From an uncultured Synechococcales cyanobacterium (GTDB lineage Bacteria; Cyanobacteriota; Cyanobacteriia; CAIUCS01): a stretch of DNA of 64,000 nt. Of this stretch, positions 2,748 through 8,690 are shown in pieces. The notes beneath the pieces were generated by a model. That model was not told where the DNA came from. It made no database searches and saw only the letters and a list, made by a program, of their open reading frames with translations. The stretch spans positions 1-64,000 of the forward strand of contig CAIUCS010000033.1 in NCBI GenBank assembly GCA_903897715.1, given 5' to 3'. The position numbers and the translations under genes are program-made. Numbering within the stretch: the stretch's first letter is position 1; the number at the start of each line of letters is the position of its first letter.

Positions 2748-3179
2748 TTAGCTCTGTCGTTCCTCGGTTTTATAAATATAAAACGAATTAAAAATACCCA
2801 CCGTTTCAGAATAGTAACGGGGTGCGATTTCCTTGGGTACGAAAGGCAGAAAATCACTGAGAGCCAAATTAGTTTTATATAAACTGAACATAACGTAATT
2901 CTGACGCTCAGTGTGATTTATCACAAAGTCCTTAAACTGTCCCCGGTTAACATCCACAAAGGAGTGACATTGGGACGTTAACCCTGATATTTGCACATTA
3001 ATGAGTTCCTTTACGGTTTCCGTTAGCCCGGGACAACCTTCTGTCTTAATCTGGTTGATCAATTGGTCTTCAGCAAACTGAAAATAGGCTGGTTTGCCAG
3101 GGTTCGTTGCAATTGAGGCAACCGCCGTTCCCACAATTGTTAAGCCTATGAACCCACCGATTACTTTCATAACCATCAT
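2748..3179 (-). CDS. DUF4359 family protein, membrane-anchored or secreted
   Basis: A 143-residue protein with an N-terminal hydrophobic segment (about residues 4-25, VIGGFIGLTIVGTAVASIA), either a signal peptide or an anchor. This is followed by TNPGKPAYFQFAEDQL and, near the C terminus, the HTERQNYVMFSLYKT segment and SETVGIFNSFYIYKT. This pattern matches the cyanobacterial DUF4359 family as I remember it. A pair of cysteines (in EGCPG and SQCHS) could form a disulfide outside the cytoplasm. Function is unknown. It is transcribed convergently with the ABC permease gene. Confidence 0.7.
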   Translation of the reverse strand: MMVMKVIGGFIGLTIVGTAVASIATNPGKPAYFQFAEDQLINQIKTEGCPGLTETVKELINVQISGLTSQCHSFVDVNRGQFKDFVINHTERQNYVMFSLYKTNLALSDFLPFVPKEIAPRYYSETVGIFNSFYIYKTEERQS

Positions 3180-3252: not shown

Positions 3253-3663
3253 CTACTGCCCTTGGTTGGATAAGTATGTCCTCCAACTCCCGAAGTGGGA
3301 AATTTCAGTCCCATTTATTATTGCATACGGTTCACAGATAAAGCCTTTAACAACGTGATCATCCTCTAAGATTACATTACCCATCCCTAGGGGGGGTGGA
3401 ATTTGGACTACAAAACGACCGAACCCTGTTACGGAAATCTCCCAAACTTCTACTTCAATTGCCCACCCCCTCCCCTCTCCCTGCCTGACCAAACCTGGCT
3501 TTGGTATGACTCCTTCAATGGCATATAGTTTATAGATTGACTTGGTTCTAGTCGTTTGAATCAATATTGCCCCCTCATCCGTTAGTTGATAATTGAGGGG
3601 TTGTCCTGTCAGGTGAGCACCAACAACAGCAACTTTCACCATTTGATCAGATGGATGCACCAT
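3253..3663 (-). CDS. atzF: allophanate hydrolase C-terminal domain, separated by a stop codon
   Basis: This 136-residue product matches the C-terminal domain of allophanate hydrolase (AtzF): VKVAVVGAHLTGQPLNYQL, then RTKSIYKLYA, PKPGLVR, IEVEVWEI, IPPPLGMGNV, VKGFICE and FGSWRTYL. In typical AtzF it is fused to the amidase domain in one chain of about 600 residues. Here it lies in the same reading frame as the amidase gene upstream, with only TAA plus four codons between them. No good Shine-Dalgarno precedes the ATG at 3663. It may be a split subunit made by reinitiation, a readthrough product, or half of an inactivated gene. Confidence 0.85.
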   Translation of the reverse strand: MVHPSDQMVKVAVVGAHLTGQPLNYQLTDEGAILIQTTRTKSIYKLYAIEGVIPKPGLVRQGEGRGWAIEVEVWEISVTGFGRFVVQIPPPLGMGNVILEDDHVVKGFICEPYAIINGTEISHFGSWRTYLSNQGQ

Positions 3664-3675
3664 AGGGAAGACAGA

Positions 3676-5124
3676 TTAAGACACAACTGGGGAATAGGGT
3701 ATCACATGGAGGGCACCAACCGGCAAGTTCATCATCTGTTGAAATTCCTGACTAAGCTTGCACAAGGCTTCATCGTATCCCGATTGTGCCATAAAAGTAA
3801 TTCCCGTTGGCAATCCATTTGCCTGAAACCCACTGGGAACTGAAACGGCTGATAGATCCATTAAGTTAACAAAGTTGGTATACCGTCCTAAATTTCGATT
3901 CAATTCCAACGGATGATTGGCAATGTCCTTCACTGTATAAATGGTGCCTGTGGTCGGCAGTGCCAAAATATCCACCAACCCCCAGGTTGACTGGGCTTGA
4001 CGACGGTACTCCATCAACCGATAGTAGTCTTGAAAGGCATCCATTGCCCGATATCCATGGCCACCATTGATGATTGAACGCACAATAGAGTTGGTTTCCC
4101 CTTCGGATTGGGTATTGATGAACTCCCCCACGGCAGCGGTACGTTCTGCAACCCAAGCCCCTTCATAGAGCATCAATGCAGTGGCATGAAATGGGTCAAA
4201 GTCAAACTCATGAAAGGTAGCCCCTCTGTCTTTAAGAACATTCAGGGCAGTGGCATAGTTAGTTTCTGCATCAGAATTGTTAAAGAAGTTTAACTGATGC
4301 GGGTAGGGTACTCCAACCCGTAATTGATTCAAACTGGGTAATTCATACACTGGTATGGGTTTGGCAAATGGATCCAATGGATCAAACTGTCCAGCCACTG
4401 CCAAAACTTCCGCCGCTTCCTCACCGGTTAAGGTAAAAATTGAGACGCAATCCAGGGTGCGAACTGCTGGTACTAGCCCTCGGGTACTGATACGTCCGCA
4501 ACTTGGTTTGAACCCCACAATATTCGTAAAGGCTGCTGGAACCCGACCAGAACCGGCTGTATCCGTTCCAAGGGCAAAACTCACTAAGCCTGCGGAAACG
4601 GCACAGGCGGAACCACTACTAGACCCACCGGGAATATAATCAGCATGGAAAGGGTTACGGCAAATGCCATAGGGGGTTCGGGTTCCAACCAGACCTGTGG
4701 CAAATTGGTCTAAATTGGTTTTACCAATGGCAATAGCACCGGCTGCAATTAATCGCTCCACCACTGGGGCTGAATGGTCAGGGAAGTAGGTATAACGGGG
4801 ACAACCAGCAGTGGTGGGTGCCCCGCTCCAATCAATATTGTCTTTGATGGCAAACGGGATTCCATAAAGGGGTAGGTCAGTTTGCCCAGTGATGGATTCT
4901 GCCTGTTTCAGGCTGTCTTCCAATGAAGCGAGGGTGATCCAAATCGCAGGATCACCATACTGGCGAATCCGCTCATACACCATCCGAATGATTTGCGGTG
5001 GACTAGACTGACCGGAACGATAACGCTTTAACAATGATGGAATATGGAAGGGGAGTATGGAATCCGATGGGGGATGACACTGGGAACTTAAGGGACTTGA
5101 AAACGGGGTATTTGGGGTAGTCAT
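3676..5124 (-). CDS. atzF: allophanate hydrolase, amidase domain
   Basis: Amidase-signature enzyme predicted to hydrolyse allophanate to ammonia and CO2, the last step of urea, biuret or guanidine carboxylation routes. The 482-residue protein carries the Ser-cisSer-Lys triad: lysine in PFAIKDNID, serines in PGGSSSGSA, and the nucleophile in GTDTAGSGRVPAA. The match extends to the end of the amidase domain. The stop TAA at 3676-3678 precedes the AtzF C-terminal domain in the same frame, so an intact fusion of about 623 residues seems ancestral. Transcribed divergently from menB across 94 bases. No urea carboxylase gene is visible here. Confidence 0.88.
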   Translation of the reverse strand: MTTPNTPFSSPLSSQCHPPSDSILPFHIPSLLKRYRSGQSSPPQIIRMVYERIRQYGDPAIWITLASLEDSLKQAESITGQTDLPLYGIPFAIKDNIDWSGAPTTAGCPRYTYFPDHSAPVVERLIAAGAIAIGKTNLDQFATGLVGTRTPYGICRNPFHADYIPGGSSSGSACAVSAGLVSFALGTDTAGSGRVPAAFTNIVGFKPSCGRISTRGLVPAVRTLDCVSIFTLTGEEAAEVLAVAGQFDPLDPFAKPIPVYELPSLNQLRVGVPYPHQLNFFNNSDAETNYATALNVLKDRGATFHEFDFDPFHATALMLYEGAWVAERTAAVGEFINTQSEGETNSIVRSIINGGHGYRAMDAFQDYYRLMEYRRQAQSTWGLVDILALPTTGTIYTVKDIANHPLELNRNLGRYTNFVNLMDLSAVSVPSGFQANGLPTGITFMAQSGYDEALCKLSQEFQQMMNLPVGALHVIPYSPVVS

Positions 5125-7439: not shown

Positions 7440-8690
7440 ATGAACAACTCCCTAGGGTCAGCCTATTTTATTAATGGCGATCGCCTCCTATCCACTATCA
7501 TGACCCTTGCCACCATTGGTCAACTCCCCAATGGGGGGGTACAACGGTTAGCCTATAGTGGAGAAGACCGACAAGCACGGCAACTCATCCAACAATGGAT
7601 GGTTGAAGCCGGCATGGGGGTTAGGGTTGATGGGGGTGGCAATATCATTGGCTATTACCCCAGTCGCCATTCCCATCGACCCGCCATTGCTATGGGCTCT
7701 CACCTTGATACGGTTCCCAATGCCGGACATTATGACGGAGTGTATGGGGTATTAGCGGCTTTAGAAGTAGTTCGCTCTTGTCAAGAGCAGTCACTCCCCC
7801 TCAACCATCCGCTGGAAGTTATGGTCTTCACCGATGAAGAAGGCACCATGATTGGCAGTAAAGCCATGGCGGGTCGCATTAACCCAAATCTGGACTCCTA
7901 TGGATTGATAGAGGGTAAAGACATTCAAACCTGTTTAAATAGCATTGGGGGCAATTGGCAACAAATTCACCAAGCCAAACGGGATCCCCACACTCTCACT
8001 GCCTTTTTAGAACTCCATGTTGAACAGGGACCGGTTCTGGAACAGGCTGGCACTTCCATTGGGATTGTGACCGGGGTGGTGGGGCAACGACGTTATAGAA
8101 TTACCATTGAAGGGGGGTCCAGTCATGCCGGTACTACCCCAATGCCCCTCCGTCATGATGCCCTTGTTGCGGCTGCCCAGGTGATTTTGGATATAAACCG
8201 CCTTGGTAATTTACCCGGTAATCAAGTGGCAACGGTGGGTAAAATTGAAGTAAAACCCAACGTCCCCAATACTATTCCAGGTTTTGTGGAAATGTCCCTG
8301 GATATTCGAGACTTATCAGAAAATAATTTAGATGACTTGATGGCAACATTGGAATCTGACATCCATGGAATCGCTCACCATACCCAAACTAAAATCAATC
8401 TGCAACCCGTCTTAAACAATCAGCCAGCCTTGGCAAGTGGATCCATTCAGTTGGCAATTGAAGAGGCTTGCGGGTTGTTGAATTTATCCCATACCCACTT
8501 ACCCAGTCGAGCCGGACATGATGCCCAAGAAATGGCTAAACTAACGGAGATGGGCATGATTTTTGTCCCTAGTCATCATGGTGTAAGTCATGCTGAAACT
8601 GAATACACGTCCCCTGAACACTGTGTACAGGGAGCGAATGTTTTACTGAATACAGTGCTTCTTTTAGACCGACAACGTTTCAACTTATAA
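7440..8690 (+). CDS. M20-family Zn amidohydrolase (N-carbamoyl amino acid / allantoate amidohydrolase type)
   Basis: Zinc-dependent hydrolase of the hydantoinase/carbamoylase branch of peptidase family M20, predicted to cleave an N-carbamoyl or ureido bond. The 416-residue protein shows the metal ligands and neighbourhood in MGSHLDTVPNAGHYDGVYGV (residues about 80-100), TDEEGTMIGSKAMAG near 138-152, LELHVEQGPVLEQ near 199, the dimerisation-domain SSHAGTTPMPLRHDAL, and the C-terminal SRAGHDAQEMA and SHHGVSHAETE. Close homologues are annotated HyuC, AmaB or AllC; the exact substrate cannot be read from sequence. An allophanate hydrolase 2 kb away makes a ureide-nitrogen role plausible but unproven. 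Confidence 0.9.
   Translation: MNNSLGSAYFINGDRLLSTIMTLATIGQLPNGGVQRLAYSGEDRQARQLIQQWMVEAGMGVRVDGGGNIIGYYPSRHSHRPAIAMGSHLDTVPNAGHYDGVYGVLAALEVVRSCQEQSLPLNHPLEVMVFTDEEGTMIGSKAMAGRINPNLDSYGLIEGKDIQTCLNSIGGNWQQIHQAKRDPHTLTAFLELHVEQGPVLEQAGTSIGIVTGVVGQRRYRITIEGGSSHAGTTPMPLRHDALVAAAQVILDINRLGNLPGNQVATVGKIEVKPNVPNTIPGFVEMSLDIRDLSENNLDDLMATLESDIHGIAHHTQTKINLQPVLNNQPALASGSIQLAIEEACGLLNLSHTHLPSRAGHDAQEMAKLTEMGMIFVPSHHGVSHAETEYTSPEHCVQGANVLLNTVLLLDRQRFNL

Follow-up and report, generated by a model that had tools for sequence, protein, structure and literature searches.

Layout of the Gene Pair

The window, that is, the whole stretch of 64,000 nucleotides analysed here, carries on its minus strand two adjacent genes whose products correspond to the two parts of an allophanate hydrolase. 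The amidase subunit of the enzyme (3676..5124) is encoded by an ORF of 482 aa, which runs from 5124 to 3676 and ends with TAA (3678-3676). The AH_C subunit (3253..3663) is encoded by an ORF of 136 aa, which runs from a putative start codon, ATG at 3663, to 3253 in the same frame as the amidase and has a second in-frame ATG at 3642. Reading of the sequence gave a junction (3664..3678, minus strand) that consists of the TAA (3676-3678) and the four codons TCT GTC TTC CCT (3664-3675), directly followed by the ATG at 3663-3661. From 5124 to 3253, a single frame of 622 sense codons is obtained, and the TAA at the junction is its sole internal stop. The sequence-only reading of this locus had placed both halves on the same strand and in the same frame, parted by TAA and four codons, and had called them otherwise undisturbed. 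The re-read sequence agrees with this description, since no further stop or frameshift occurs in the 622 sense codons and both domains are covered.

Downstream of the pair, on the same strand, a 143-aa ORF (2748-3179) gave no NCBIfam match. A few genes away, on the opposite strand, lies a hydrolase of the hydantoinase/carbamoylase family (7440-8690), which is allantoate-amidohydrolase-like.

Identity of the Two Halves

The amidase half matched PF01425 (Amidase) of Pfam at 1.8e-87, and the AH_C half matched PF21986 (AH_C) at 1.6e-45 over profile positions 1-122 of 123. The amidase half alone exceeded the curated cut-offs of PRK08186 (603.1 bits; cut-off 487) and TIGR02713 (544.3 bits; cut-off 511.05), while the AH_C half corresponded to the C-terminal end of TIGR02713 (positions 434-562 of 563). 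The halves are consecutive parts of these two allophanate hydrolase models. Among PDB entries, the amidase half matched 4gyr (7.9e-124) and the AtzF amidase 4cp8 (1.2e-121), and the AH_C half matched the C-terminal part of 4gyr (1.9e-34). The fold of the window halves is settled because they are homologous to solved structures. In the alignment with 4gyr, the amidase-signature Lys-Ser-Ser segments kdnid, ggsssgsa, and lgtdtagsgr were the same in the window, and we take these segments to be catalytic. Allophanate hydrolase, a nitrogen-releasing enzyme, usually consists of a single long protein. The solved full-length enzymes are single polypeptides, whereas the window pair is interrupted by the in-frame TAA.

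Fused and Split Forms in Other Cyanobacteria

The search set comprised 388 cyanobacterial genomes, including that of the window (G000), with no other genome of the window's order among them. Relatives were searched with the amidase at E ≤ 1e-80 and with AH_C at E ≤ 1e-24. The amidase search found 32 of the 388 genomes, 21 with AH_C adjoining and 11, from family f13, at 45-48% identity. For these lone f13 amidases, no AH_C lay alongside in any of the nine inspected (of 11), the stretch being shorter than 350 bases for three of them. The f13 loci L052-L060 carry allophanate-hydrolase-like amidases in genomes without urea carboxylase above the cut-off.

AH-type AH_C was found in 23 of the 388 genomes. 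It was fused to the amidase in eight (G013, G032, G046, G071, G113, G124, G160, and G276) and formed a split pair with both halves intact in twelve (G000, G015, G033, G082, G016, G034, G062, G084, G095, G097, G191, and G259). The remaining three were broken or incomplete: G048 is split with a frame-disrupted AH_C, G009 is broken, and G017 has an AH_C near a contig end for which no amidase match was obtained at 1e-80. The comparison with relatives proposed in the sequence-only reading therefore rests on intact pairs of which 12 are split (including the window) and 8 fused, all the relatives coming from orders other than the window's. From this comparison of sequences, the split state is a mark of a variant of allophanate hydrolase and not of exclusion from the family, the intact cyanobacterial pairs being split in 12 of 20 cases.

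Leaving the window aside, there were 11 intact split pairs, and in 9 of them the halves were out of frame with each other. The two same-frame exceptions, G033 and G097, have at least 75 bases from stop to start, and with the window counted, 3 of the 12 intact split pairs share one frame. The genes overlap by ATGA in G016, G062, and G034, by GTGA in G082 (putative start), and by about 30 bases in G084, while gaps were observed in G015, G033, G095, G097, G191, and G259, the longest being about 300 bases. A GGAGGTG stretch lies 5' of the overlapping ATG in G016 and G062. Judged by their sequences, the junctions of the split relatives look like ordinary gene boundaries. The split pairs of G015, G033, and family f17 resemble the window in that the genes are adjacent, in the same order, and 55-63% identical, but their junctions are unlike the window's.

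To compare the position of the stop, residues were counted to the end of the amidase, beginning at the start of its LGAT-like motif (VGAL in the window). This distance was 14 in the window, 13-16 in six split relatives, and 8-17 in five lone amidases. The comparison covers six of the twelve split relatives, the motif pattern having not been found in six split rows (G048, G084, G095, G097, G191, and G259). The window TAA thus appears to fall about where stand-alone amidases end.

In G062, a truncated second copy (L086:14286-15326) is an in-frame fusion of the C-terminal half of the amidase and AH_C, in which the internal Met of the split form is kept. Stand-alone AH_C paralogs are common (for example, L078:3663-4079 in G000:C67, and L017-L030), with about 30-40% identity to the window AH_C; no amidase match occurred within about 1.5 kb of the paralogs at L017-L030. 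Some AH_C match was present in 53 of 96 genomes, and it was of the AH type in 16 of those.

Phylogeny of the Split Pairs

In the amidase tree, which took 5 of the 11 lone f13 amidases, the window fell into an 8-row clade that contained split genes only, with a support of 96/94. The concatenated two-domain tree gave a clade of 7 rows, again all split (95/91), and the tree of the 21 cyanobacterial rows only gave an all-split clade of 8 rows (94/92). The AH_C-only tree left the window's place unresolved. The AH_C tree, the concatenated tree, and the invariant-column counts described below did not include G048, which was represented in the 21-row tree only by its amidase. In 1000 bootstrap trees of the 21 cyanobacterial rows, the sister group of the window consisted of split genes alone in 973, of fused genes alone in 16, and of both in 11. 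The window's branch was long in three trees (0.96-1.13, compared with medians of 0.22-0.25), and its place in the tree is therefore less sure. A single clade of all split rows was rejected (p-AU 5.7e-7); the best trees required 4 changes between the fused and split states, 2 of which were forced by well-supported branches. Therefore, the fused or split state has changed several times. The split of the window would most simply have been inherited together with that of G015 and family f17.

Among the alternatives, a fission confined to the window's lineage fared best. According to this explanation, the interdomain linker of a once fused gene acquired a stop, and both products remained functional. 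The shared frame and the four codons from stop to ATG are in agreement with it, as is the spacing from the motif to the AH_C core, which is 31 codons in the window (stop counted) and 25-37 in seven fused cyanobacterial proteins; since the spacing lies within the fused linker range, a single point change would be enough to turn a fused gene into the present layout. The outgroup AtzF genes, taken from eight plasmid stretches, were fused in 7 of the 7 analysed (L071, with a truncated 302-aa amidase-family annotation over the AH_C match, was left out), and the recurrent changes of state noted above also favour a separate event. Moreover, placement of the window with the fused genes of G276, G160, and G124 was not rejected at 0.05 (p-AU 0.0654), under a constraint that was chosen after the tree had been seen and that also forces those three together. 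However, the all-split sister group prevails in the bootstrap trees, and a shared frame has a one-in-three chance of arising anyway and is seen in a quarter of the intact split pairs. A fission private to the window's lineage is consequently considered rather unlikely, and a split inherited with those of other cyanobacteria is preferred.

Pathway Context

Of the 388 genomes, 52 had urea carboxylase (TIGR02712) above the cut-off, among them 18 of the 23 with AH-type AH_C. The carboxylase was not over the cut-off in the window genome, G009, G097, and G124, and G113 had partial matches beside its gene. The best TIGR02712 match of the window genome (1.1e-159) was below the cut-off and is taken as another biotin carboxylase, its value being similar to that of most genomes. 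Urease is present in the window genome.

Many carboxylases of this type are nowadays regarded as using guanidine as their substrate. Guanidine-I riboswitches were searched for at the loci of 5 relatives and then at the other 10 context loci. They were detected at 6 of the 10 searched amidase-AH_C loci of relatives (G015, G033, G034, G062, G276, and G160), whereas none was found at the loci of G082, G097, G124, and G191 or in the window. The loci with riboswitches near the allophanate hydrolase genes of these six relatives are among L061, L079, L080, L081, L086, L091, and L087, the last of which belongs to G061. Two more guanidine-I riboswitches lie near a urea carboxylase and an AH_C paralog of G061 (L087), and in both G061 (L087) and G060 an AH_C paralog directly adjoins a urea carboxylase match. 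A carboxylase was located within about 5 kb of the split pair in G015, G033, and G062. Because riboswitches occur at 6 of 10 searched loci, the breakdown of guanidine is a probable role of the enzyme in some of the relatives. The window differs from the riboswitch loci of G015, G033, G034, and G062 in having no riboswitch match in the window and no carboxylase over the cut-off in its genome.

A search for AtzD gave no match, but the controls were silent too, so that the result does not speak for its absence. It is conceivable, if doubtful, that the enzyme has two subunits whose halves have been repeatedly joined and separated, and that the window pair, freed from carboxylase and riboswitch and with a fast-changing amidase, uses allophanate or a related compound from an undescribed source. 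A literature search for N-carboxycarbamate found nothing.

Constraint and the Nature of the Stop

Columns invariant in the 19 other rows were used to compare the conservation of the two halves. In the amidase, the window kept 114 of 118 such columns, a share that three rows fall short of, and in AH_C it kept 34 of 38. Some relaxation of the window AH_C is possible because this is the lowest share of the 20 rows.

The sequence-only reading had left three options, namely a recent nonsense mutation, readthrough, and a functional two-gene enzyme. Decay would be one form of the first: the TAA would be a fresh nonsense mutation, and the window genome would be on its way to losing the pathway. The enzyme may be a relict, given that the window genome has no carboxylase over the cut-off; in addition, the urease, the long branch, the low AH_C share, and the broken copies in the relatives G048 and G009 would suit decay. 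On the other hand, the reading frame has stayed open apart from the junction, almost all invariant amidase columns are kept, and the stop stands about at the end point of stand-alone amidases. This last observation and the tree disfavour a recent nonsense mutation, and we judge decay improbable. As far as comparison of sequences can tell, the stop that separates the halves more probably marks a long-standing gene boundary than recent damage, and the heading of the earlier reading, a gene split by a stop, suggests damage and is probably misleading.

Programmed readthrough of the stop codon, yielding some full-length protein, was the second option. It draws on the open frame on either side of the TAA, but it cannot explain 9 of the 11 other intact split pairs because their halves are in different frames, which argues against the need for a joined product. 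An ATG also follows within 12 nt of the TAA, and readthrough is accordingly given very little credence. If the gene were in fact fused and the stop a sequencing or assembly error, conceivable in a draft assembly of 207 contigs, the error would by coincidence lie about at the natural amidase end and inside a clade of split genes; this is most improbable. The two-gene enzyme was favoured among the options by the split relatives in several families, the 9 of 11 pairs out of frame, and the tree position.

Translation of the AH_C Subunit and Proposed Function

No Shine-Dalgarno match was found before the ATG at 3663, which bears out the earlier remark that the second half has no obvious ribosome binding site. 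The starts inspected were those of 31 of the 45 listed window ORFs (one GTG) and of AH_C. The absence says little because only 9 of these 32 starts have a match of at least 4 bases and the amidase start has none. In a start-site model trained on the 31 window ORFs, which was weak (AUC 0.72), the ATG at 3663 was middling, with 31.5% of 336 internal ATGs scoring as high. The six bases before it are all pyrimidines, a feature noticed post hoc and shared by 0.9% of internal ATGs and by 13% of the starts used in training. The Met of the window AH_C lies 12 residues before the VVGAHL core (the second Met 5 before), and in nine split relatives that have one clear Met the distance was 8-14. In G097, Met occurred at 5, 13, and 18 residues before the core, and in G082 there was none.

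Taken together, it is likely that the allophanate hydrolase of the window is encoded by two adjacent genes. Its split state probably goes back to an ancestor that the window lineage has in common with other cyanobacteria. Of the two genes, the first would give the amidase, which would remove the first amide from allophanate, and the second an AH_C subunit that would act on the amidase product and may help assembly. The AH_C subunit would be translated from the shared mRNA by re-initiation or by independent initiation at the ATG at 3663, 12 nt past the TAA. Both genes would be expressed, and their products would meet and act together.

Comparison with Known Systems

A genome annotation could list the window pair as two partial genes or as one that is broken. 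It seems from the present comparison that encoding the amidase and AH_C in separate genes is among the normal arrangements of this enzyme in several families of cyanobacteria. A survey of urea carboxylase and allophanate hydrolase covered 308 cyanobacteria, and the word 'split' does not appear in its main text (PMC6737895). The genes for both enzymes are also mentioned for hot-spring Synechococcus in another study (PMC4477158). The literature search, which covered few subscription papers, turned up no account of an allophanate hydrolase split in cyanobacteria, and this is weak evidence of novelty. Split pairs offer a natural test of what an untethered C-terminal domain contributes; a study of AtzF tested the role of this domain by truncating a fused enzyme (PMC3944691).

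The window halves match, in order, consecutive parts of the chains of 4gyr/4gys, 4iss/4ist, and the urea amidolyase 5i8i. Unlike the window pair, these are fused, and the 5i8i chain (1829 residues) adds other urea amidolyase domains. AtzF from Pseudomonas sp. ADP (amidase part, PDB 4cp8) shares the amidase family with the window amidase but is a single polypeptide and acts in the cyanuric acid pathway. AtzF is described as a large amidase at the N-terminus followed by a small C-terminal domain, and the two can be parted with trypsin, cleavage at Lys467 giving pieces of 48 kDa and 14 kDa (PMC3944691). On biuret, its 467-residue amidase had an activity equal to that of the whole enzyme, and it was dimeric, unlike the whole enzyme (PMC3944691). 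For the fungal enzyme, a review of urea amidolyase describes the reactions of the N and C domains of the allophanate hydrolase part as sequential (PMC5770610). The two-gene form is biochemically plausible by analogy, because the domains of AtzF are separable and the N and C domains catalyse sequential reactions.
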